From: Rhodanobacter sp. A1T4
GTDB taxonomy: Bacteria; Pseudomonadota; Gammaproteobacteria; Xanthomonadales; Rhodanobacteraceae
Assembly (NCBI RefSeq): GCF_014207185.1
Contig: NZ_JACHCP010000004.1
Location: 310,001 to 374,000 of the forward strand
Length of the DNA: 64,000 bases
Direction of reading: 5' to 3'
Part shown: positions 2,575 to 23,776 of the stretch, piece after piece
Layout: every line of letters begins with the position of its first letter
Position numbering within the stretch: position 1 is the first letter of the stretch
The notes under the pieces: model-generated
The model's database searches: none
The model's input: only the letters and a program-made list of their open reading frames with translations
Told to the model about the DNA's origin: nothing
Translations under genes and position numbers: made by a program

Positions 2575-5082
2575 TTATTGATAGCCGAGAATATCACGGC
2601 GCAACGTGGGATCGATTTGGCCACCGGTTGAGCCCAGTCCCTTGAAGACCACTTCAAACATGATGGCGTTGTCGCGAAGGTTGGTATTACTGGCCGTGGG
2701 CACGGCAACGGTGCCGTAATAGGTCTGGTTTACGTAGTTGCGATCGACCAGTCTCAGTGTCACGCAGCAGCTGTCGTATTCGACGCCAGCCAGGGCTTCC
2801 ACCGTTCCGGTCGCCGTATTTTCGAGGCCCTTGATTGGTTCCTCGTAACTCCAAGAGCCGATCAGGCGCCAATACGCGGATATCGGGTAGGTCGCCGATA
2901 CGCTGTATTGATCCAACAGGCCGCGGCGATAGTGATACGAGAAATTCAGCACGCCATCGTTGCCTAAGCGGTGCTGTAATTCAAAGGCGGCCATGTCGGT
3001 TTGATGCGTATTCGGGCTCCACTGATAAGCGGTGTTGACGCGCCAACGATCGTTGAGCTGCATGTCAAACTGCGCAACGTAATCGGAACCGTGGAAGTTT
3101 GTTGAGGGGGTAAGTGTGTTGGCTCCGGTGGGTATCTGCACGAGCTGCGGGGTGAAATACCGGATCTGGCCGAAACTGGCGGAAATCCTCTCCACGCCGT
3201 TCTCATCGAGCAGGCGGGTGGTCAGCGCGCCGGTGAGGTTGTTCGCGTTCATCTGCCGATCGTCGCCGGCATACTGGTTCGGGGTGAAGAGCTGGTAGTA
3301 GTCGAACGAGGTTAGCGAGGTGTCGAATAGCGGCAGATCATCCTGGTTGCGGTACGGCACATACAGATAATACGCGCGCGGCTCCAGCGTCTGTGTGTAG
3401 TTGGTGCCGAACAGCGAGATGCTGCGGTCAAATACCAGGCCGCTATCCAGACTGACGATCGGCATCGAGCGGGTGGGCGTTTTGTCGGTAAAAGGTGTAG
3501 TTTGACCGCTAGTCAGTAGACCGGAGTAGCCGTAATTCTGGTAATCACCGCTGAGATCGTAGGCTGTATAGCGATATGCCAGCTTCGGTCGAACGAACCA
3601 GGCTGAGTTACCCAAGTCCGCCTGAATGTACGGGTAGAGGTCGAGGCGCTCGCCTTCCACAAAGTCGGCTTTGTGGAAATCGTCGAACTCGTTGTTCGCG
3701 CCGAATTCCAGCCAGCGGGAGATCGGTATGTTCAAGTTGAGTATCAGGTATGGCAACTTGTCGTATGGATTGACCGCATCGGTAGCGAACGGATTGGTGT
3801 TCTGATAGATGAGTCCGCCGAACTGCGCGTTCCACCACGTTCCGCCACCGACAATGGCTGCGTTGGAAGCCAGGGTATAGATCACCGTATGCGACAAGGC
3901 GTTGCCGAAATCGTAAAGATAGGCGTTATCGGACGCGTGGTTGTAGGAACCCACGAAGGTCCAGCTGTCCCATAAATGCGTCGTATCGGTGTAGTCGATC
4001 AGGTAGCGCGACTGGCCGGTGGTATTGGTTGTGCCATCGCTCTCGCCGGTGTCGTTGGGTACGTACTCGACATTGAGTTGACCGTGGCTGGCTTGGTTGC
4101 CGGATGTGAGATAGCGGAACTCACCGGCCAGCAACTCTCCGCGCGAGGCGTAGTAGCGCGGATCCAGGGTGGCGTCGTAATTTGGCGCCAGATTGAAGTA
4201 GTACGGCGTGCTGATTTCGAAGCCGGAGCGACTGGTATTTCCCAGCTTCGGGTTGAGGAAGCCGCTCTTGCGCCGGTGGTCGATCGGAAAGGTGAAATAG
4301 GGCAGGTAGATAAATGGCATCTTGCCGACCCGCATGGTCGCGTTGCGCGCGGTGCCGACACCGGTGTCCTTGTTCATTGTGATCGACTTGCCGCGGAACT
4401 CCCAGATGTGGTGGCCGAGGTCACAAGTCGAATAGGTCGCCATCGAATAGCGCGTGTGCAGGTCGTCCAACATCTGGCCCTGCTTGGCCACGCCGTTGCC
4501 GCGCTCATCGAGCATCTGGTAGTGCACGTTATCGGCGATGCCGCGGCTGTCGTTGCTGTTGCCGCGGATGTGGGTGCCGGCAATCAGCTGGCTCGCCTCC
4601 TGATAGCGGACGTTGCCGCGGGCATCGTAGTCGGTGGTGTCGTTGTTATAGTCGACCGTGTCGGCCTGCATTTTCTGGTCGGCGCGTTGCAGTATCACGT
4701 TGCCGGACAGATGGAAGATCGTCTGGTTGGAGCTGTCGACGTGATCGGATTTGACGTAGGCCGGGCTGGTATTGCGCAGCGACGGATCCTTGCCCAGTGC
4801 TGGGTCATAGAAATCCAGCAGCGCGTTGGGCCGGCATATCGCATAGTTATAAGGACGTGGCGCGCAGTGAAACGTGCCCAATGGACACACTTGTTCCGAT
4901 CCGTCCAGGGACGACTTTGGGCGGACCTGACCGGTAGCTTCGGCCTGGTTGCCGATCAGGGCGAGCGCGGCGGCGACGGCCAGAAGGCGGCGCGGTGGGA
5001 GCTTATGCGTCACAGTCAAAATCTGTCGGCTATGAGAGTTCGTTAAGCTAACAGAAAGACCGAGTGTAAGGCAGGCATACAT
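2575..5082 (-). CDS. lptD: LPS-assembly outer-membrane protein LptD
   Basis: LptD is the 26-strand outer-membrane barrel that, with LptE, inserts lipopolysaccharide into the outer leaflet. It has an N-terminal jellyroll (OstA-like) domain, roughly residues 100-250, and a long barrel rich in aromatic strands that ends near residue 835. The conserved cysteine pattern is present: Cys in the N-terminal region, Cys in TYSTCDLGHH and the adjacent Cys pair in YDSCCVTL, matching the residues that form the essential inter-domain disulfides in E. coli. The start is uncertain. ATG at 5082 gives 835 residues, but GTG at 5013 begins MTHKLPPRRLLAVAAALAL, a textbook signal peptide, and may be the true start (812 residues). 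First gene of the lptD-surA-pdxA-ksgA operon. Confidence 0.95.
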   Translation of the reverse strand: MYACLTLGLSVSLTNSHSRQILTVTHKLPPRRLLAVAAALALIGNQAEATGQVRPKSSLDGSEQVCPLGTFHCAPRPYNYAICRPNALLDFYDPALGKDPSLRNTSPAYVKSDHVDSSNQTIFHLSGNVILQRADQKMQADTVDYNNDTTDYDARGNVRYQEASQLIAGTHIRGNSNDSRGIADNVHYQMLDERGNGVAKQGQMLDDLHTRYSMATYSTCDLGHHIWEFRGKSITMNKDTGVGTARNATMRVGKMPFIYLPYFTFPIDHRRKSGFLNPKLGNTSRSGFEISTPYYFNLAPNYDATLDPRYYASRGELLAGEFRYLTSGNQASHGQLNVEYVPNDTGESDGTTNTTGQSRYLIDYTDTTHLWDSWTFVGSYNHASDNAYLYDFGNALSHTVIYTLASNAAIVGGGTWWNAQFGGLIYQNTNPFATDAVNPYDKLPYLILNLNIPISRWLEFGANNEFDDFHKADFVEGERLDLYPYIQADLGNSAWFVRPKLAYRYTAYDLSGDYQNYGYSGLLTSGQTTPFTDKTPTRSMPIVSLDSGLVFDRSISLFGTNYTQTLEPRAYYLYVPYRNQDDLPLFDTSLTSFDYYQLFTPNQYAGDDRQMNANNLTGALTTRLLDENGVERISASFGQIRYFTPQLVQIPTGANTLTPSTNFHGSDYVAQFDMQLNDRWRVNTAYQWSPNTHQTDMAAFELQHRLGNDGVLNFSYHYRRGLLDQYSVSATYPISAYWRLIGSWSYEEPIKGLENTATGTVEALAGVEYDSCCVTLRLVDRNYVNQTYYGTVAVPTASNTNLRDNAIMFEVVFKGLGSTGGQIDPTLRRDILGYQ

Positions 5083-13436: not shown

Positions 13437-13529
13437 ATGGATTTCGTCTATCTCCTGCTTTTGATTGTGCTTTGCGCGGCCACGCTGGGTCTCCTGCTGA
13501 TCTGCGATCGCCTCAGCCCGCGCAAATAG
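13437..13529 (+). CDS. 30-residue membrane peptide ahead of kdpF
   Basis: MDFVYLLLLIVLCAATLGLL begins a one-helix peptide ending CDRLSPRK. It is the same length as KdpF and, like it, is a single hydrophobic helix with a short basic cytosolic end, but the tail (CDRLSPRK) is not the KPEWFE end of KdpF. Similar short frames ending in a CDRL-like motif precede kdp genes in other bacteria as far as I recall. It lies 87 bases before kdpF and downstream of the candidate KdpE box, so it is likely the first gene of the transcript. A role in stabilising or regulating the pump is a guess. Confidence 0.6.
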   Translation: MDFVYLLLLIVLCAATLGLLLICDRLSPRK

Positions 13530-13616: not shown

Positions 13617-13709
13617 ATGAATGTCCTTTATGTCCTCGCCGGGCTGATCGCTGTGGCGCTGACCGGCTACCTCTGCGTGGCACTTCTCAAGCCGGAGTGG
13701 TTCGAATGA
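13617..13709 (+). CDS. kdpF: K+-transporting ATPase small subunit KdpF
   Basis: A 30-residue single-helix membrane peptide reading MNVLYVLAGLIAVALTGYLC and ending KPEWFE, the canonical KdpF form. KdpF stabilises the KdpFABC complex at the KdpA-KdpB interface. The gene overlaps kdpA by four bases (ATGA, 13706-13709), which fixes both the frame and the kdpA start. Confidence 0.9.
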   Translation: MNVLYVLAGLIAVALTGYLCVALLKPEWFE

Positions 13710-15508
13710 CCACGAATGACTTTGTCCAGATCGGATTTTTCCTGGTCATCCTGTTGCTGCTGGTCAAGCCGCTCGGCGGATACATGGCCAACGTGTTCTC
13801 CGATACGCCTAATCGCGTCACGCGCTTTGGTGGCGGTGTTGAGCGCTTGATCTATCGACTGTGCGGCATCCGCCAGGACGAGGACATGGGCTGGAAGCGC
13901 TATGCGCTGGCGCTGCTGATCTTCAACATCCTTGGCCTGCTGGTGGTTTACGCACTGCAGCGTCTGCAGCAATGGCTGCCGCTCAACCCGCAGCACTTTC
14001 CGGCGGTAACGCCAGATTCCGCGCTCAACACTGCGATCAGTTTTGCCAGCAATACCAACTGGCAGGGCTACGGCGGCGAGTCGACAATGAGCTACCTCAC
14101 CCAGATGCTGGGTCTGGCAGTGCAGAACTTTCTGTCGGCCGCGACTGGTATCGCGGTACTCATTGCGATCATTCGTGGCTTCAGTCGTCGCAGTGCGCAG
14201 GGCCTGGGCAATTTCTGGGTCGACATGACGCGCAGCACGCTGTACGTGCTGATGCCGCTGTCGCTGCTGCTGACCATGCTGCTGGTATCGCAGGGGGTGG
14301 TGCAGAACTTCAAGTCGTATGTGGATGTGCCGGTCGTGCAAACCACGACGGTAAGCGAGCCGGTGCTGGACGCCTCGGGTGCCGCGGTCAAGGACAAGGC
14401 CGGCAATCCGGTGATGAAGCCGACCGACGTTTCCACGCAGACCCTGCCGATGGGGCCGGCGGCTTCGCAGATCGCGATCAAGCAGCTGGGTACCAACGGT
14501 GGCGGTTTTTTCAACGTCAACTCGGCGCACCCCTACGAGAACCCCACCCCGTTCAGCAATTTCCTGGAGCTGCTGTCAATTTTGCTGATTCCCGCGGCGC
14601 TCTGCTACACGTTTGGTGAGCTGGTGAAAGACAAGCGGCAGGGCTGGGCGCTGCTGGCGGTGATGTTGGTGATCTTCGTGCCGCTATTGATCGCCTGTAC
14701 CTCGGCCGAGCAAGCGGGCAACCCCGCGTTCAACGTGCTGCATGTCGACCAGACCGCGTCCGCGCTGCAGGCCGGCGGCAATATGGAAGGCAAGGAGACG
14801 CGTTTCGGCATCGTCAACTCCACGCTGTGGGCGACGGCAACCACGGCAGCGTCGAACGGCTCGGTCAATGCAATGCATGACTCGTTCACTCCGCTCGGCG
14901 GCCTGATCCCGATGTGGCTGATGCAGCTGGGCGAAGTGATCTTTGGCGGCGTCGGTTGCGGCCTCTACGGCATGCTGGCTTTCGCGGTGGTGGCGGTATT
15001 CATTGCCGGATTGATGGTAGGTCGCACGCCGGAGTATCTCGGCAAGAAGATCGAAGCCTATGAAATGAAGATGGCCAGCCTCGCGGTGCTGCTGCCGTGT
15101 GCCTTGGTGGTAATCGGTACGGCGATTGCGGTGACGGTGCCGGCCGGGTTTGCTGGTGTGGCCAATCCGGGCGCGCACGGCTTCAGCGAAATGCTCTACG
15201 CGCTGAGTTCGGCGTCCAACAACAACGGCAGCGCTTTCGGTGGCCTCACCGTCAACACGCCGTTCTGGAATGTGCTGCTGGGTATCTGCATGTTCCTCGC
15301 CCGCTTCCCTCTGATCATCGCGATGCTGGCGATGGGCGGTGCGCTGGCAGCCAAGCGTCACGTACCGAACTCGGCCGGCACACTGCCGACGCATACGCCG
15401 CTGTTCGTCACGCTGCTGGCCTGCGTGGTGATCGTGATCGGCGCACTGACCTTTCTGCCGGCCCTGGCCCTGGGGCCGATCGCCGAATACCTGATGTCTG
15501 TCCACTGA
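13706..15508 (+). CDS. kdpA: K+-transporting ATPase subunit A (potassium channel-like)
   Basis: KdpA binds and translocates K+ in the KdpFABC pump and is a relative of the Trk/Ktr superfamily. The 600-residue protein has about ten membrane helices. Selectivity-filter-like loops are visible at [10 protein letters not shown] (about residue 115), GTNGGGFFN (about 265), a third near [14 protein letters not shown] and a fourth around [13 protein letters not shown] (about 505). A start in ATGA overlap with kdpF is preferred over the slightly earlier GTG. The gene heads the pump module and is followed 47 bases later by kdpB. Confidence 0.97.
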
Positions 15509-15555: not shown

Positions 15556-17643
15556 ATGACTTCGCACACTGAAACGATGGGCAACCCACCTGTCGGCAAT
15601 TTCAACCGCACGCTGGTCGTTGCAGCGCTCGGCGATTCCTTCCGCAAGCTGTCGCCGCGGCTGCAGTTCCGCAATCCGGTGATGTTCGTGGTATTCGTCT
15701 GCAGCGTGCTGACCACGTTGCTCTGGGTGCAGGCGCTGGCCGGTCACGGTGAAGCGCCGACGGCCTTCATTTTCTGGGTCAGCCTGTGGCTGTGGTTCAC
15801 CCTGTTGTTCGCCAACTTTGCAGAAGCGCTGGCCGAAGGCCGCGGCAAGGCCCAGGCCGATGCCTTGCGCAGCTCACGCAAGGACGTGATCGCCAAGAAG
15901 CTTGCCAGCGCCGATCGTAATGCGGAGATCGTCTTCACACCATCGAACGAGCTGCGTACCGGCCATCACGTATTGGTGGAAGCGGGCGAGGCGATTCCCG
16001 GCGACGGTGAAGTGGTCATTGGCGCGGCCAGCGTCGACGAGAGCGCGATCACCGGCGAATCCGCGCCGGTGATCCGCGAATCCGGCGGCGATCGCAGCGC
16101 GGTCACCGGCGGCACCAAGGTGCTGTCCGACTGGGTGGTGGTGCGTATCACCAGCAACCCGGGCGAAAGCTTTCTCGATCGCATGATCGCGATGGTGGAG
16201 GGCTCCAAGCGCCGCAAGACGCCGAACGAAATCGCGCTGACGATTTTGTTGGCCAAGTTCACGCTGATCTTTTTACTGGCCTGCGCCACGCTGCTGCCGT
16301 ATTCGCTCTACAGCGTCAAAGCCGCCGGGCTCGGCCATCCGATCACGCTGACTGTGCTGATTGCACTGTTGGTCTGCCTGATTCCCACCACGATCGGCGC
16401 GTTGCTGTCGGCGATCGGCATCGCCGGCATGGATCGGATGATCCGCGCCAACGTGATCGCCACCTCAGGCCGTGCGGTGGAAGCTGCCGGCGATGTCGAT
16501 GTGTTGCTGCTGGACAAGACCGGCACCATCACGCTGGGCAACCGTCAGGCCGTGCAGTTTCATCCGGCGCCAGGGATTGCCGACCACATCGTTGCCGAGG
16601 CGGCGCAGCTGGCTTCGCTGGCCGACGAAACGCCGGAAGGCCGCAGTGTGATCGTGCTGGCCAGAGAGAAGCATGGCCTGAGCGAGCCCGAGCTGGCCGA
16701 AGGTGAAGCGCAGTTTGTGCCGTTCACTGCGCAAACCCGCATGAGCGGTGTCGACATCGGTTCGCGGCAGATCCGCAAGGGTGCACTCGATGCCGTGGAA
16801 AAGCATTTGGAAGCGCAGAGCAGCCACCTGCCGCCGTTGGTCAAACGCATGGCCGAAGACATCGCCCGTCGCGGCGCCACGCCGCTGATCGTCACTGAAG
16901 GCGCACGTGCGCTCGGCGTGATCGAGCTGAAGGACATCGTCAAGATCGGCATCAAGGAGCGTTTTGCCGAGATGCGCAAGATGGGCATCAAGACCATCAT
17001 GATCACCGGTGACAACCCGCTCACCGCGGCGGCCATTGCGGCCGAGGCCGGCGTCGATGATTTCCTCGCCGAAGCCACGCCGGAAGCGAAGCTGAAACTG
17101 ATTCGCGACATGCAGGCGGAGAACCGCCTGGTCGCGATGTGTGGCGACGGTACCAACGACGCCCCTGCGCTGGCGCAGGCCGATGTGGCGGTGGCGATGA
17201 ATACCGGTACGCAAGCGGCCAAGGAAGCCGGCAACATGGTCGACCTGGATTCCAACCCGACCAAGTTGATCGAGGTGGTGGCCATCGGCAAGCAGATGCT
17301 GATCACCCGCGGCGCGCTGACCACGTTCTCGATCTCCAACGATATCGCCAAGTACTTCGCGATCATTCCGGCCGCGTTTGCCACCACCTATCCAGCACTG
17401 AATGCGCTCAACGTGATGCACCTTGCCACACCGCAGAGCGCCATTCTGTCGGCGGTGATCTTCAATGCGCTGATCATCATCTTCTTGATTCCGCTGGCGC
17501 TGAAGGGTGTGAAGTACCGCGCGCTGGGAGCGGGTGCGCTGCTGCGTCGCAATCTGCTGGTGTACGGCCTGGGTGGCATCGTGGTGCCTTTCATCGGCAT
17601 CAAGATCATCGACATGTTGCTCGTTGTGTTCGGGATGGCCTGA
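15556..17643 (+). CDS. kdpB: K+-transporting P-type ATPase subunit B
   Basis: KdpB is the ATP-hydrolysing subunit of the Kdp pump. Hallmarks of P-type ATPases are present in order: the actuator-domain [11 protein letters not shown] (TGES), the phosphorylation site [10 protein letters not shown] with Asp320, KGA in the nucleotide-binding domain, [20 protein letters not shown], and the hinge motif [15 protein letters not shown]. The protein is 695 residues with the usual seven helices. The ATG at 15556 is close after kdpA. The gene is followed not by kdpC but by a small protein and a porin, an unusual interruption of the kdpABC order. Confidence 0.97.
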
Positions 17644-17722: not shown

Positions 17723-17932
17723 ATGCAAACCCTGAAGCTTTCCGTCTCGCTACCCGATGCCACTCATCCCGATATGGAGCTGCGCCTGTCGGCCAATGAT
17801 TCGGACTGCGAAGTCGTCATCGCGCTGCCCACGGGTACACGCGTCGATCTGGTCAAACCCACGGTCGTCAGCGTCAACCCGCTCAGCGCGGTCAACGACG
17901 AATACGAGCTCGGCGGTTACGCCGGTATCTGA
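17723..17932 (+). CDS. Small hypothetical protein within the kdp operon
   Basis: A 69-residue protein starting MQTLKLSVSLPDATHPDMEL, preceded by GGAG at a good distance, 79 bases after kdpB and 83 before the porin. It has no signal peptide or membrane helix. It is rich in Val, Asp and Thr, alternates polar and hydrophobic residues as in a small beta structure, and ends ELGGYAGI. I do not recognise a family. Its position inside the operon suggests a role linked to the pump or porin. Confidence 0.65.
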   Translation: MQTLKLSVSLPDATHPDMELRLSANDSDCEVVIALPTGTRVDLVKPTVVSVNPLSAVNDEYELGGYAGI

Positions 17933-18015
17933 CATCACAAAAATATTTCTTCCACTACTTCTTTCACCACCAGTCTGGTCCGGCACGGGCCACAGTTGCA
18001 GGGGCTTTTACTTTT

Positions 18016-19512
18016 ATGCAGTACAAGAAACTTATTTCCAGTGCGATTCTCGTTGCGATGATGCCAGTTGGTCAGGCGATGGCTACGGTCGACGCCTCGT
18101 CAGGCGCAGCGCTCACTCCGGATTCGCAGTCGGCTATGTCCGCTCCGGCGACGGCCAAGGTATCCAGCAGCGATTGCTCGGTCGGCTTTTTGAGCCGTTT
18201 TGCGGCCGCCTATCGCGAGGACGCGGAGCCGGCCGATCCGAATGCGCCCGCCACGCCGCGTCGCGCCATGCTGGCACCGCTCGACTCACCGCCTTTCCCC
18301 AACTCCGAATGGCAGCTGGGTGGGGTCGACGCGCCGATCGGTGTGCCGGATACGAACTCGCAGTACCCGTTGGAAAAAGCGCTGTCCTGCACCGCCGTCG
18401 GCCAGTGGATGAAAAACAACCGCATCGAGGTATTTGGCTGGATCAACCCGTCGGCCAATGCCAGTACCTCCAACACGAGCAATTATCCGCTGTCGTACGC
18501 CACGCGGCCGAACCGCCTGGAATTCAATCAGTGGGTGCTGAATATCGAGCGTGTGCCCGACACGGTACAGACCGATCATGTCGACTGGGGCTTCGACATC
18601 TCCAACCTGTACGGCTACGACTACCACTTCACCACGATGAAGGGCGTTTTCAGCAATCAGCTGTTGAACAATCCGGCCGGCGCCAACGAGCCGCTGTCCG
18701 GCAAGATCTACGGCGACGATCCGATGCTCTTCTACTACGACCTGTATATCCCTTCGGTCGCACAGGGCATGGAGATACGTTTCGGTCGCTGGCTGTCGCT
18801 GCCGGACATCGAGGCGCAGTTTTCGCCGCAGAACTATCTCGTCACGCACTCGATTCTCTACACCGTCGATCCGTACACCCAGATGGGTGTGATGACGACG
18901 ACCAAGCTCAACAACCAGTGGACGGTGCAGCTTGGCATCAACGGCAGCAACGACACGGCGATCTGGAATTCCGCCGCGCGGCCGTCGCTTCAGGCCTGTG
19001 TGCGCTGGGTTTCCAAAAGCAACGACGACATGCTTTATCCATGCGTCAACAACTTCAACGAGTCCGACTACAACTATAACAACGTGCAGATGTACGTGAT
19101 GACCTGGGGTCATCGCTTCAGCCAGAATTTCCACATGCTCACCGAGTCGTACTACATGTACGGGCGCAACGTGCCCGGCTTTGGTCCGGGCGAGACGCCA
19201 GGAATCACAGGATCGTCGCCGCTGCCGGGCAAGGCAGCCGAATACGGCATCGTCAATTATCTGAACTTTGAACTGAGCCCCAGCAACATGCTGTCGTTCC
19301 GCAACGAGTTCTACAACGACCAGAAGGGTCAGCGCACCGGTTTCGCCACCCGCTATACCAGCCACACGGTGGGCATTACCCATTGGGTGTCACAGGACCT
19401 GGAGATCCGCCCGGAGCTTCGCTACGAGCACTCCTACGATCTTCCGGCCTATGACGAAGGCAAAAAGAGCAGCCAGACCGTGGCGTTGCTCGACGCCATC
19501 CTCCACTACTGA
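18016..19512 (+). CDS. Outer-membrane beta-barrel porin (BBP2/OmpL-like) in the kdp operon
   Basis: A 498-residue exported protein with a signal peptide (about 1-23, ending AMA). A barrel pattern of alternating aromatic strands follows, with segments such as [47 protein letters not shown] and [20 protein letters not shown]. These resemble the putative beta-barrel porin-2 family (OmpL-like). The C terminus ends LLDAILHY, an aromatic end typical of barrels. It lies between kdpB and kdpC (9 bases before kdpC), so it is very probably expressed with the pump under potassium limitation. Selectivity for K+ is an inference from position. Confidence 0.83.
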
Positions 19513-19520
19513 GAAACATC

Positions 19521-20102
19521 ATGGGCAAATTACTGCGTCAATCCATCATGATGCTGCTGTTGATGACGGTCATCACCGGTGTCGCGTATCCACTGGTCGC
19601 TACCGGGCTGGCTCAGGTGATTTTTCCTGGGCAGGCCAACGGCAGTCTGATCGTCAAGGACGGCAAGCCGATCGGTTCCACGCTGATCGGTCAGTCGTTC
19701 ACCGATGCTAGGTACTTCTGGGGTCGTCCGTCGGCCACGACGCCGAATCCGAACAATGCGGCATCGTCATCCGGTTCCAACACCGGTCCGACCAATCCGG
19801 CGCTGGTCGATGCGGTCAAGCAGCGTATCGATGCGCTGCACGCGGTCGATCCGACGAACAACGCGCCGGTGCCGGTCGATCTGGTCACGGCTTCGGCCAG
19901 CGGTCTGGATCCGGAAATCTCACCAGCGGCGGCACAGTATCAGGTGGCGCGCGTGGCGCAGGCACGCAAGCTGAGTGCGTCGCAGGTGCAGGCTCTGGTT
20001 AGTGAATACACCAGCGGCCGCACGCTGGGCATCCTCGGCGAACCCCGCGTCAACGTGCTCAAACTCAACTTGGCACTGGATGCGCCGCAACACGGAAGCT
20101 GA
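19521..20102 (+). CDS. kdpC: K+-transporting ATPase subunit C
   Basis: KdpC is the single-span periplasmic subunit of the KdpFABC pump, proposed to improve its K+ affinity or assembly. The 193-residue protein has an N-terminal membrane helix (about 8-32) with [17 protein letters not shown], then the family signature YFWGRPSAT and the conserved [17 protein letters not shown]. It starts 9 bases after the porin stop, so porin and kdpC are probably translated from one message. A strong hairpin follows at 20151. Confidence 0.96.
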
Positions 20103-20150
20103 TGCTATTGGGCGATGGGATTAGTGTGGCAAGCACTTGGGGAGGTTGCA

Positions 20151-20182
20151 GAGCGGAAGCCGGATTCTCGGCTTCCGCTCTG
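20151..20182 (+). terminator. Perfect hairpin between kdpC and kdpD
   Basis: AGAGCGGAAGCCG and CGGCTTCCGCTCT form a perfect 13-base-pair stem around a 6-base loop, followed by GCCGTTTTG. The T-run is short, so termination may be partial. It lies in the 219-base gap that separates the pump genes from the kdpDE regulators and may lower or uncouple regulator expression. Confidence 0.7.
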
Positions 20183-20321
20183 CCGTTTTGTGTTGTGGTC
20201 ACGAGTTCTATAGCCCTCGTTTTATGACGCACGCACTGGCATGCTTGATAGCGCAGACCACTGCCTGGCTGTGCGGACACCTGGATGTTTTACGGGACGC
20301 CCTTGACCGGAGTTGCGCCGC

Positions 20322-23003
20322 ATGACCGAATCTTCCCGTGAAGCCCGTGCCGATGCGCTGCTCAACACCGCGCATGAAGAGCACAACCGCCGGCTGAAGA
20401 TTTTTCTCGGTGCCGCACCAGGCGTGGGTAAAACCTACGCGATGCTTTCCGCCGCGCGCGAGCTGAAGCGGCAAGGTGTTGACGTCGTGGTCGGTCTGGT
20501 TGAAACGCACGGCCGTGCTGAAACCGCCGCGTTGTTGGAAGGCATGGAAGTGCTGCCGCGTCGGCCGGTACGCTACGAGTCGTTCAACGGCGGCGATCGC
20601 GAGTTCAGCGAATTCGATCTCGACGCTGCGCTCGCGCGCAAGCCAACCGTGCTGCTGGTCGATGAGTTGGCCCATCGCAATCTGCCGGGCGGCCGCCACG
20701 AGCGGCGTTGGCAGGATATCGCCGAATTGCTGGATGCCGGCATCGAGGTCTACACCGCGCTCAACGTGCAGCATCTGGAAAGCCTCAACGACCAGGTGCA
20801 ACGCATCACCGGCATCACCGTGCGCGAGACCGTGCCCGATGCGTTTCTCGATCACGCACGCGACATCGTGCTGATCGATCTGCCGCCGCGCGAGCTGATC
20901 GCACGGTTGAAGCAGGGCAAGGTCTACGTGCCGGAAACCGCGGCCGCTGCGTTGAACGCGTTCTTTTCGCCGACCAACTTGGCCGCGTTGCGCGAGCTGG
21001 CGGTAGGCACCATCGCCGATCACGTCGACAGCGATCTGCGCGAACACATGTTGGCGCGCGGCAGCGCCATGACGGTACGTCGGCGCGTGCTGGCCGCGAT
21101 CGATGGTCACGCGCAAAGTGATTATCTGGTGCGCGTGGCGCGGCGCATTGCCGAGCGTCGTGGTGCGCCGTGGAGCGTTGCGTATGTCGACACGGGCGCC
21201 CGGCTCGATCCGGTGCGTCGTGAGCAGCGCGATGCGGCCATGCGGCTGGCACGCCGGCTCGGCGGTGAAACCATCATTCTGCGCGGCCACTCGATCGCCG
21301 ACGAATTGCTGGCGCACGCCGATCGCGAAGGCGTTGGCCAGATCATCCTGGGCCGCACGCGCGAACGGCTGATCGCGCGTATGCTGGGTCGCTCGCTGAC
21401 GCAGATGCTGCTGCGTCGCGGCGCCCACATGGAGTTGACCATCATCGCCACGCCGGCCGAACGGGCCAAGGCGCGCCGACGGCTGAGATTGCCACGTGAT
21501 CGCGGCAGCCGCAGCGAATACGTCTACGCCACGCTGGCCACGTTGGTGGCTTTCGGGTTGGCCTTCATTGCCGACCGTTATCTCTCCGTCGCCAATCTGT
21601 CGTTGATCTTCCTCACCGCCGTGCTGGTAGTGGCCGTTCGAACGCGCATGACCGTAGCCGTCTATACGGCCATTTTATGTTTTATCGGCTACAACTTTTT
21701 CTTTGCGCCACCGCGTTACACGCTGGAAATTGCCAATTTTGACGACGTGCTGGCAGTTACGCTGTTCCTGGTTGCGGCCCTGGTCTGTAGCCGACTGGCT
21801 ACGCGGCTCGCGAGTCAGGTGGAATCGCTGCGGGCGTCACACGCGCAGACCCGCGCGCTGCTGACGCTGGGTCAGCAGCTGAGTACCAGCACCGACGCCG
21901 ACGGCATTCGTGCTGCCGGTAGCAGGGCGCTAGCGCGCGCGTTGCACTGCGACGCGTCGATGTTGGCGCGTGACGCCGATCAGGTGCTTCAAGTGGTCGC
22001 CAGTGAGCCGACTGATCGCGTATTTACTGCGCAGGACTTGGCCGCCGCCGACTGGAGCGATCGCCACGGAGAGCAGGCCGGTCGTTTCACTGACACTTTG
22101 AACGCTGCGCCATGCTGGATCCTTCCGCTGGGCAGCGATACCCGTCCGCTGGGCGCCATTGGATTGCGTTTTGATCCGGCAGAGGGCGAGCCCGATGCCG
22201 ACCGGCGTAGCCTGGCGCTGGCGATGGCGCAGGATATCGGTCAGGCGCTGGAACGCGCGCGTTTGTCCGACGAACTGGAGGGCGCGCGTGTGCAGGGCGA
22301 AACCGAGCGCCTGCGCAACGCATTGCTGTCTTCCGTCTCGCACGATCTGCGTTCGCCGCTGGCTTCGATGATAGGGGCCGCCGGCACGCTGATCAGCTAC
22401 GAAGCCAAACTGCCACAGGCTGAGCGGACCGAGCTGCTGCAATCGATTCTCGGCGAAGGCCAGCGGCTGGATCGCTATATCCAGAATCTGCTCGACATGA
22501 CCCGGCTTGGCCACGGTACGCTCAAGCTCAGCCGCGACTGGACCGATAGCAGCGAGATCATCGCGGCCGCTGTCACGCGACTGCGTAAATTGTTTCCCGA
22601 TCTCCGCGTGGAGACGGTGGCGCCACAAGAGCCGATTCTCCTCTACGTGCATCCGGCGCTGATCGAGCAGGCGCTATTCAACATTCTGGAAAACGCCGCG
22701 CGCTTCTCACCGGCCGACGAAGCCGTGCGCGTTACGGTACAGAGCAAGGAGGAGCGTCTGCTGATCGACGTCAGCGATCGCGGCCCCGGCATTCCCGAAG
22801 CCGAGCGTGCGCAAATCTTCGACATGTTCTATTCCGTCTCGCGCGGGGACCGCGCGCCGCAAGGCACCGGCCTCGGCCTGGCCATCTGCCGTGGCATGAT
22901 CGGCGCGCACGGCGGCAGCGTCGAGGCCTTGCCAGGTGACGGCATCGGTACCACCATCCGCATCAGCCTGCCGTTGCCGGCGCCACCCGGCTCTGATCCG
23001 TGA
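20322..23003 (+). CDS. kdpD: Sensor histidine kinase KdpD
   Basis: KdpD senses K+ limitation/ionic stress and phosphorylates KdpE. The 893 residues follow the full architecture. There is an N-terminal KdpD domain with Walker A GAAPGVGKTYAM (about 30-41) and VDELAHRNLPGGRH, then a universal-stress-like domain (about 250-375). Four membrane helices (DUF4118, about 400-490) and a GAF-like region (about 520-640) follow. Last come HisKA with His674 in SVSHDLRSPLASM and an ATPase domain with NILENAARFS, DRGPGIP and GTGLGLAICRGM. The phospho-accepting His is at nearly the same position as in E. coli KdpD. The ATG at 20322 is the third codon after a short upstream open stretch. Confidence 0.96.
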   Translation: MTESSREARADALLNTAHEEHNRRLKIFLGAAPGVGKTYAMLSAARELKRQGVDVVVGLVETHGRAETAALLEGMEVLPRRPVRYESFNGGDREFSEFDLDAALARKPTVLLVDELAHRNLPGGRHERRWQDIAELLDAGIEVYTALNVQHLESLNDQVQRITGITVRETVPDAFLDHARDIVLIDLPPRELIARLKQGKVYVPETAAAALNAFFSPTNLAALRELAVGTIADHVDSDLREHMLARGSAMTVRRRVLAAIDGHAQSDYLVRVARRIAERRGAPWSVAYVDTGARLDPVRREQRDAAMRLARRLGGETIILRGHSIADELLAHADREGVGQIILGRTRERLIARMLGRSLTQMLLRRGAHMELTIIATPAERAKARRRLRLPRDRGSRSEYVYATLATLVAFGLAFIADRYLSVANLSLIFLTAVLVVAVRTRMTVAVYTAILCFIGYNFFFAPPRYTLEIANFDDVLAVTLFLVAALVCSRLATRLASQVESLRASHAQTRALLTLGQQLSTSTDADGIRAAGSRALARALHCDASMLARDADQVLQVVASEPTDRVFTAQDLAAADWSDRHGEQAGRFTDTLNAAPCWILPLGSDTRPLGAIGLRFDPAEGEPDADRRSLALAMAQDIGQALERARLSDELEGARVQGETERLRNALLSSVSHDLRSPLASMIGAAGTLISYEAKLPQAERTELLQSILGEGQRLDRYIQNLLDMTRLGHGTLKLSRDWTDSSEIIAAAVTRLRKLFPDLRVETVAPQEPILLYVHPALIEQALFNILENAARFSPADEAVRVTVQSKEERLLIDVSDRGPGIPEAERAQIFDMFYSVSRGDRAPQGTGLGLAICRGMIGAHGGSVEALPGDGIGTTIRISLPLPAPPGSDP

Positions 23004-23080: not shown

Positions 23081-23776
23081 ATGACCTCGGCTTCCCCACG
23101 CATTCTGGTGATCGACGACGAGGCGCAGATCCGGCGCTTTCTCGACATTGGCCTGCGGGCAGAAGGCTACGAGGTGTTTCTGGCCGCCAACGCGGCGGAC
23201 GGCCTGGCGCTTGCGGTGACGCAATCGCCCGATCTGGTCATTCTCGACATCGGCCTGCCCGATCGCGAAGGCCACGACGTGCTGGCCGAGCTGCGCCAGT
23301 GGACACAGGTGCCGGTGATGATGCTGACCGTGCGCGATGCCGAAAGCGAAAAAGTACGTGCGCTCGATGGTGGCGCCAATGACTATGTCACCAAGCCCTT
23401 CGGCATCCAGGAGCTGATGGCCCGATTGCGCGTACTGCTGCGCAGCCGCCCCGGCGAGCCGGCGACCCAGCAGCGCTACGACGATGGTCATCTGGTCATC
23501 GATCTGGCCCGGCGAGAGGTGCATCTCGACGGCGTCCTGCTGTCGCTCACTCGCAAGGAATACGCCGTGCTCGCCATGCTGCTGCACCACGCTGGCCGTG
23601 TCGTCACCCAGCAACAGGTATTACGCGAACTCTGGGGTGCCACTCATGTGCAGGACACTCATTACCTGCGCATCGTGCTCGGTAAGCTCCGCCAAAAACT
23701 CGGCGACGATGCAACCACACCGCGCTGGCTGAAAACCGAGCCCGGAGTAGGTTATCGGTTTCTTGGAGCGGGTTGA
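23081..23776 (+). CDS. kdpE: Response regulator KdpE
   Basis: An OmpR/PhoB-family regulator of 231 residues that activates kdp transcription when phosphorylated by KdpD. The receiver domain has the acidic pair Asp12-Asp13, phospho-acceptor Asp56 in LVILDIGLPDREG, Thr in MLTVRDAE and Lys in YVTKPFG. A winged-helix DNA-binding domain occupies about 130-228, with LTRKEYAVLAML and VGYRFL. The ATG at 23081 matches the family N terminus. It is 77 bases downstream of kdpD. The tandem repeat at 13343-13361 is its probable target. Confidence 0.96.
   Translation: MTSASPRILVIDDEAQIRRFLDIGLRAEGYEVFLAANAADGLALAVTQSPDLVILDIGLPDREGHDVLAELRQWTQVPVMMLTVRDAESEKVRALDGGANDYVTKPFGIQELMARLRVLLRSRPGEPATQQRYDDGHLVIDLARREVHLDGVLLSLTRKEYAVLAMLLHHAGRVVTQQQVLRELWGATHVQDTHYLRIVLGKLRQKLGDDATTPRWLKTEPGVGYRFLGAG

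Follow-up and report, generated by a model that had tools for sequence, protein, structure and literature searches.

The kdp locus of the soil bacterium Rhodanobacter sp. A1T4 raises the question of why a gene for an outer-membrane barrel should reside among the genes of an inner-membrane K+ pump. Kdp has been studied as an inner-membrane system, and the outer membrane has been treated as freely open to K+. To our knowledge, the known kdp operon, of the E. coli type, contains no outer-membrane gene. The 64-kb stretch of Rhodanobacter DNA analysed here (the window) shares all pump subunits and KdpD/KdpE with the E. coli-type kdpFABC(DE) system, but in the window a small protein and a barrel are encoded between kdpB and kdpC.

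All six Kdp components were recognised by Pfam/NCBIfam models, and the order on the + strand is kdpF-kdpA-kdpB-69-aa ORF-BBP2 barrel-kdpC-kdpD-kdpE (Table 1). Thus, kdpB and kdpC are not contiguous in the window, while the order of the pump subunits is retained. The original prediction that the kdpFABC order is split by a small ORF and a BBP2-like barrel was confirmed, with every gene where it had been placed. The distance between the stop codon of the porin gene and the start codon of kdpC, which had been given as 9 bases, is 8 nt by our count.

Table 1. Features of the kdp region, in window coordinates.
Feature	Coordinates	Strand	Basis
30-aa single-span ORF, upstream of kdpF	13437..13529	+	translation; alignable in 14 compared relatives
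kdpF	13617..13709	+	PF09604 E=2.7e-7; TIGR02115 over cut-off
kdpA	13706..15508	+	PF03814 E=2.6e-244; TIGR00680
kdpB	15556..17643	+	TIGR01497, E=0
small conserved protein, 69 aa	17723..17932	+	beta-rich N-terminal block, variable linker, nearly invariant C-terminal tail
BBP2-family barrel, 498 aa	18016..19512	+	PF07642 E=5.1e-31; signal peptide, C-terminal aromatic
kdpC	19521..20102	+	PF02669 E=2.6e-79
terminator-like hairpin, 16 pairs then T-rich tail, after kdpC	20148..20183	+	
kdpD sensor kinase	20322..23003	+	PF02702 E=9.9e-90
kdpE response regulator	23081..23776	+	PF00072, PF00486; best NCBIfam PRK10529 KdpE, under cut-off

The barrel protein matches PF07642 with 108.6 bits (cut-off 26.2) over model positions 4-338 of 339. 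This family, BBP2 (putative beta-barrel porin-2, OmpL-like), is named only as a putative porin. The signal peptide, judged by eye, is a plain one, and the protein ends in a tyrosine; a C-terminal tyrosine or phenylalanine is present in 15 of 15 homologues. The structure model of the porin has a mean pLDDT of 48. When this low-confidence model was used in a Foldseek search, porins were the best matches, with TM by query below 0.4 among the 50 matches listed, and a search of solved structures returned no relative for the porin.

The porin is likely to be cotranscribed with the kdp genes, judging from the common strand, the short gaps and the strong terminator-like hairpin that is present only after kdpC. 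This hairpin has by far the longest stem of the six terminator-like sites in the kdp region, a number that is not above chance (7.8 in shuffled sequences), and the terminator scan of the window region listed none between kdpB and kdpC. A sigma-70 promoter scan of the kdp region did not result in the identification of a promoter.

Conservation of this arrangement was analysed in 100 related genomes, including that of the window. This porin is encoded in 15 of them, and in all 15 its gene is located beside kdpC, between kdpB and kdpC. KdpC was detected in 45 of the 100 genomes, which together contain 46 kdp loci. In 18 other loci, the kdpB-kdpC slot holds a different protein of about 265 residues. 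Two of these 18 proteins were tested and are TorF/Gcw_chp putative porins (PF09694, E 1e-37 and 1e-41; TIGR02001), and a profile built from TorF recovered all 18. TorF therefore occupies the same slot in sister species, and other kdp operons contain it as well, without any detectable similarity to BBP2: profile-profile comparison of the two families revealed no relation beyond the signal peptide (probability 1%). The search of solved structures gave no relative for TorF either.

One locus, that of Dyella tabacisoli L4-6 (L057, which is the same as L179), has both barrels in tandem in the slot. In three loci, TorF is encoded upstream of kdpA (L086, L089 and L090), in two kdpB and kdpC are contiguous (L079 and L082), L088 contains a decayed barrel remnant, and neither TorF nor BBP2 was found in the stretches examined of L091-L095. 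Locus L070 escaped assessment, its contig starting 324 bases upstream of kdpC. A barrel is thus present in 36 of the 45 assessable loci, 33 of these in the kdpB-kdpC slot, and within the window's family the slot is occupied in 33 of 39 assessable loci. Locus L087 (genome G004) has a divergent kdp type with the order kdpA-kdpC-kdpB, in which kdpB is not followed by the small ORF and BBP2; its TorF gene, which immediately follows kdpE in the opposite orientation, was left out of the barrel count. Four more of the 100 genomes contain a BBP2 match over the cut-off away from kdp (G010, G015, G037 and, weakly, G052), and in G010, G015 and G037 a clear BBP2 protein is present and KdpC is not.

We also scanned named genomes with the porin alignment and analysed the best 80 of 186 relatives, some of which come from the same genomes as the near sample. 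Among these best 80, the porin adjoins kdp genes in 66, in three layouts, and the kdp-linked porins span Rhodanobacteraceae, Xanthomonas and Acidobacteriota. The porin gene directly precedes kdpA in seven of the 66 (four Xanthomonas, Acidipila, Bryocella and one MAG labelled Rhodanobacteraceae), and three have the layout kdpA-kdpC-kdpB-small ORF-porin. The Rhodanobacter loci L164, L171 and L173 have the order kdpA-kdpC-kdpB, with kdpB followed by the small ORF and the BBP2 porin. In the remaining layout, found in 56 of the 66 kdp-linked loci among the best 80 of 186, the porin is located directly before kdpC, and in 12 of the 15 near loci having this porin the gap to kdpC is only 7-11 nt. Such positions would fit a barrel docked to KdpC at the periplasmic domain of that subunit, the two making up a conduit across the envelope; this would explain both the adjacency to kdpC and a translational coupling. 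We consider docking very unlikely, as other layouts have the barrel before kdpA, after kdpB or after kdpC, and the interchangeability of two unrelated families is contrary to a specific interface.

No kdp gene was present in the DNA examined around the porin in 13 of the best 80 of 186 relatives, two of which sit on contigs shorter than 5 kb (L222 and L229); one further relative (L206), whose contig ends just after the porin gene, was not judged. Three of these 14 relatives that are not kdp-linked are second copies, since D. psychrodurans, D. acidisoli and D. choica also have a kdp-linked copy. In L228, a MAG labelled Granulicella, the BBP2 relative is immediately followed by a similar-looking second ORF (2734-4206), and no kdp gene was found. 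A search of plasmids yielded one distant porin, located in a nif region away from kdp.

TorF was also found at kdp in Pseudomonadota outside the window's family. KdpC was detected in 108 of 299 Pseudomonadota genomes. One kdp locus was taken from each of 60 other Pseudomonadota genera, and TorF is encoded inside or directly beside kdp in seven of these (L100, L102, L105, L113, L133, L136 and L152); in the other 53, neither BBP2 nor TorF is present in the stretches examined, which extend little beyond kdpA and can miss upstream barrels. Judged by coordinates, TorF is encoded at kdp in at least 11 of the 105 Pseudomonadota kdp genomes that do not belong to the window's family (G088, G143, G180, G183, G209, G220, G252, G266, G295, G333 and G389), compared with less than one genome expected by chance, a rough estimate that assumes about one TorF copy per genome.

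For Acidobacteriota, the phylum of Bryocella elongata, 149 genomes were sampled, of which 49 encode KdpC and 44 BBP2. In 11 of the 49 kdp genomes (10 of 48 once the genome at the centre of the sample is excluded), BBP2 shares the strand of kdpC and is located 4 to 5 kb upstream of it, which places it immediately before kdpA. This count leaves out G524, whose BBP2 gene immediately follows kdpC in the opposite orientation. Inspection of 20 of the 49 loci, chosen by the room available on the contig, revealed BBP2 directly upstream of kdpA in seven and TorF between kdpC and kdpD in one. Three others of the 20 (L292, L296 and L302) contain unnamed barrel-like ORFs directly upstream of kdpA, whose C-termini are GYNFN- or GINFN-like. 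These ORFs matched no Pfam family over the cut-off and are perhaps a third barrel family at kdp.

How often the barrels have been exchanged was estimated on a tree of 104 KdpB proteins, from which L052, L066 (too short), L070 and L087 were excluded. The barrel type switches between BBP2 and TorF at least 10 times on this tree, and 5 times when only branches with an SH-aLRT of 95 or more are kept; the loci were chosen partly for having BBP2, and the tree counts switches, not frequencies. Within the near group, there are 8 switches, or 3 with only strongly supported branches. A second tree was made of 43 TorF proteins, 26 linked to kdp and 17 not, hand-picked from the surveyed loci. A single clade for the kdp-linked TorF proteins was rejected (p-AU 6.5e-6), and hence recruitment has been repeated; linkage to kdp changes at least 10 times on this tree. 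In three genomes, the kdp-linked and the unlinked TorF pair up (G220, L102/L320; G389, L152/L321; G295, L325/L322), as expected if local barrels are drafted into kdp operons.

The genomic linkage between barrels and kdp is therefore strong: it is conserved and has arisen more than once. The survey of kdp operons that the original prediction had called for showed that it extends across genera and two phyla in several layouts, and the loss of association among relatives that would have spoken against the prediction was not seen; two unrelated barrel families have been recruited and swapped repeatedly. A rival account is that the linkage is neutral, the barrel genes having arrived in kdp operons and persisted through clonal descent with no functional tie to the pump. 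The linkage is indeed partly inherited within Rhodanobacteraceae, but barrels were recruited repeatedly and independently in two phyla, the barrel type has switched at least 10 times while the slot remained filled in 33 of the 39 assessable family loci, and dN/dS is low (0.04-0.24 for the porin in eight pairs), which makes neutral linkage hardly credible. Taken together, the linkage, the interchange of barrels in a retained slot and the recruitment in two phyla are best explained by a function that is shared with the pump.

We also wanted to know whether the 69-aa ORF upstream of the porin gene is conserved. The original prediction had called it an orphan, which is wrong: it belongs to a conserved family that is represented in 25 of the 39 kdp loci that could be assessed within the window's family, in 14 with BBP2 alone, in 10 with TorF and in one with both barrels. 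The window ORF itself gave no match at E 1 or below against Pfam and NCBIfam. The C-terminus of the family is nearly invariant (YxLGGYAGI; 24 of the 25 proteins are contained in alignment A2, L052 having been left out). Among 78 distinct ORFs selected by a profile of the N-terminal half only, YxLGGYxGI stands directly before the stop codon in 75, and the other three (L279, L281 and L283) differ by one residue; an earlier set of 70 sequences had been chosen by the tail pattern itself. The codons of the tail vary synonymously among the genes, and dN/dS is 0.07-0.40 in eight pairs. Over a wider set, matches at E 1 or below were obtained in 81 of 247 relatives, the weakest of which are probably due to chance. 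The N-terminal half has been replaced in some lineages (L199, L214, L221 and L223). In two of these, the Luteibacter loci L221 and L223, the small ORF is still located 5' of the porin gene with no kdp gene near, and has another N-terminal half and the same tail.

The model of the small protein (mean pLDDT 65) consists of three strands, a disordered linker and an unstructured tail, and only chance matches were obtained when solved structures were searched with it. A short GC-rich hairpin, noticed by eye, is often present between the small ORF and the ribosome-binding site of the barrel gene (17933-18015 in the window). We considered that the small ORF might act as an RNA element or leader peptide. 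This was rejected: in the window, the tail of the ORF plus the intergenic stretch folds no better than shuffled sequences (z 0.49), no match reached the gathering score in an Rfam search for an RNA element, and two stand-alone second copies, L266 (G044) and L267 (G029), have no kdp or BBP2/TorF match nearby. A trans-acting protein is more likely. Our guess is that the small protein probably assists the expression or assembly of the barrel from the cytoplasm, by means of its C-terminal tail.

The simplest function that barrel and pump could share is the supply of K+ to the periplasm. We regard it as fairly probable that the barrel is a KdpDE-induced outer-membrane channel feeding K+ to KdpFABC. 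On sensing a shortage of K+ or osmotic stress, KdpDE would bring about a kdpFAB-small ORF-porin-kdpC transcript from which the barrel would be translated, with translation of the porin coupled to that of kdpC. Its insertion would raise the K+ permeability of the outer membrane, and the periplasm could then supply KdpFABC at very low external K+. Co-transcription, control by KdpDE, insertion into the outer membrane and conduction of K+ by the barrel are all inferred here. The envelope-spanning K+ scavenging unit of the original prediction thus gains from the conserved and recurrent linkage, while an exclusive K+ role is contradicted to some extent by the 13 porin relatives of the best 80 that have no kdp gene near and by the 53 of 60 loci from other Pseudomonadota genera in which neither BBP2 nor TorF was found in the stretches examined. 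The same is true of the barrels beside kdp in genomes rich in general porins, and of net charge, which does not separate linked from unlinked barrels.

The main rival reading has the barrel conduct some other solute under osmotic stress. The barrel would then belong to the osmotic side of the kdp regulon, admitting osmolytes, counter-ions or other nutrients when turgor is lost, and would be co-regulated with the pump without serving K+. Kdp is osmotically induced in several bacteria. For Caulobacter, a link of Kdp with sigma-T is stated in PMC8552747. The existence of porin relatives outside kdp, and of barrels beside kdp even in genomes with many general porins, also fits an osmotic role. Nevertheless, several unrelated lineages have placed barrels among the pump genes or immediately next to them, which is more in line with a shared substrate, and no osmolyte transporter was noticed between kdp genes; we therefore consider the osmotic channel unlikely, though less so than docking on KdpC.

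K+ is small and crosses ordinary porins, which counts against a channel for K+ itself. The idea that kdp barrels occur only where general porins (PF13609, 16-strand) are missing was examined in 80 hand-chosen genomes, 36 that have a kdp barrel and 44 that do not, using this one general-porin family. Outside the window's order, five of the 10 barrel-bearing genomes have 8 to 20 PF13609 matches listed (G180, G220, G252, G266 and G333), and the other five have none among the matches listed; the window's own genome has a clear match (E 3e-25). Since kdp barrels are also present where 8-20 general porins are encoded, a shortage of pores does not explain them in general, and the idea was rejected as a general rule. 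The porin of the window has a net charge of -17, a value calculated from its sequence that fits a preference for cations. No difference in charge was found between the 66 kdp-linked BBP2 relatives and the 14 others (Mann-Whitney p 0.89), and a K+-specific charge signature was rejected.

Substrate-specific porins are encoded in uptake operons for sugars or phosphate, as are LamB, ScrY and OprP/OprO. These resemble the kdp barrels in that an outer-membrane channel is co-encoded with inner-membrane uptake, the difference being that theirs serve sugars or phosphate, whereas K+ is proposed here. No report of a barrel or porin in a kdp operon was found in the literature searched, which included few subscription journals. 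The accessible parts of PMC2700814, PMC8552747 and PMC3826726 describe no porin in a kdp operon, and the terms 'porin' and 'outer membrane' occur zero times in PMC8552747. The recurrent entry of unrelated channels into kdp operons suggests that an outer-membrane step, so far overlooked, is often required for K+ scavenging. We give about an even chance to the broader proposal that many Gram-negative lineages have a hidden outer-membrane stage of high-affinity K+ uptake, a KdpDE-induced K+ channel drawn many times from at least two unrelated barrel families and accompanied, in one family of bacteria, by a new small accessory protein with the nearly invariant tail YxLGGYAGI. If barrels entered kdp operons time and again because the outer membrane limits the K+ supply, the assumption of free permeability would be wrong for many soil bacteria. 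The proposal, if true, would also mean that two barrel families known to Pfam/NCBIfam only as putative porins or as being of unknown function have a role in physiology, and would provide a setting for studying an unannotated family of small proteins.

Finally, an alignment of the region upstream of kdpF in 14 relatives revealed no promoter motif; the 30-aa ORF was found there. In the window, this ORF encodes MDFVYLLLLIVLCAATLGLLLICDRLSPRK (MDFVYLL...DRLSPRK) directly 5' of kdpF, and its predicted single-span product is possibly a second small membrane subunit of Kdp.
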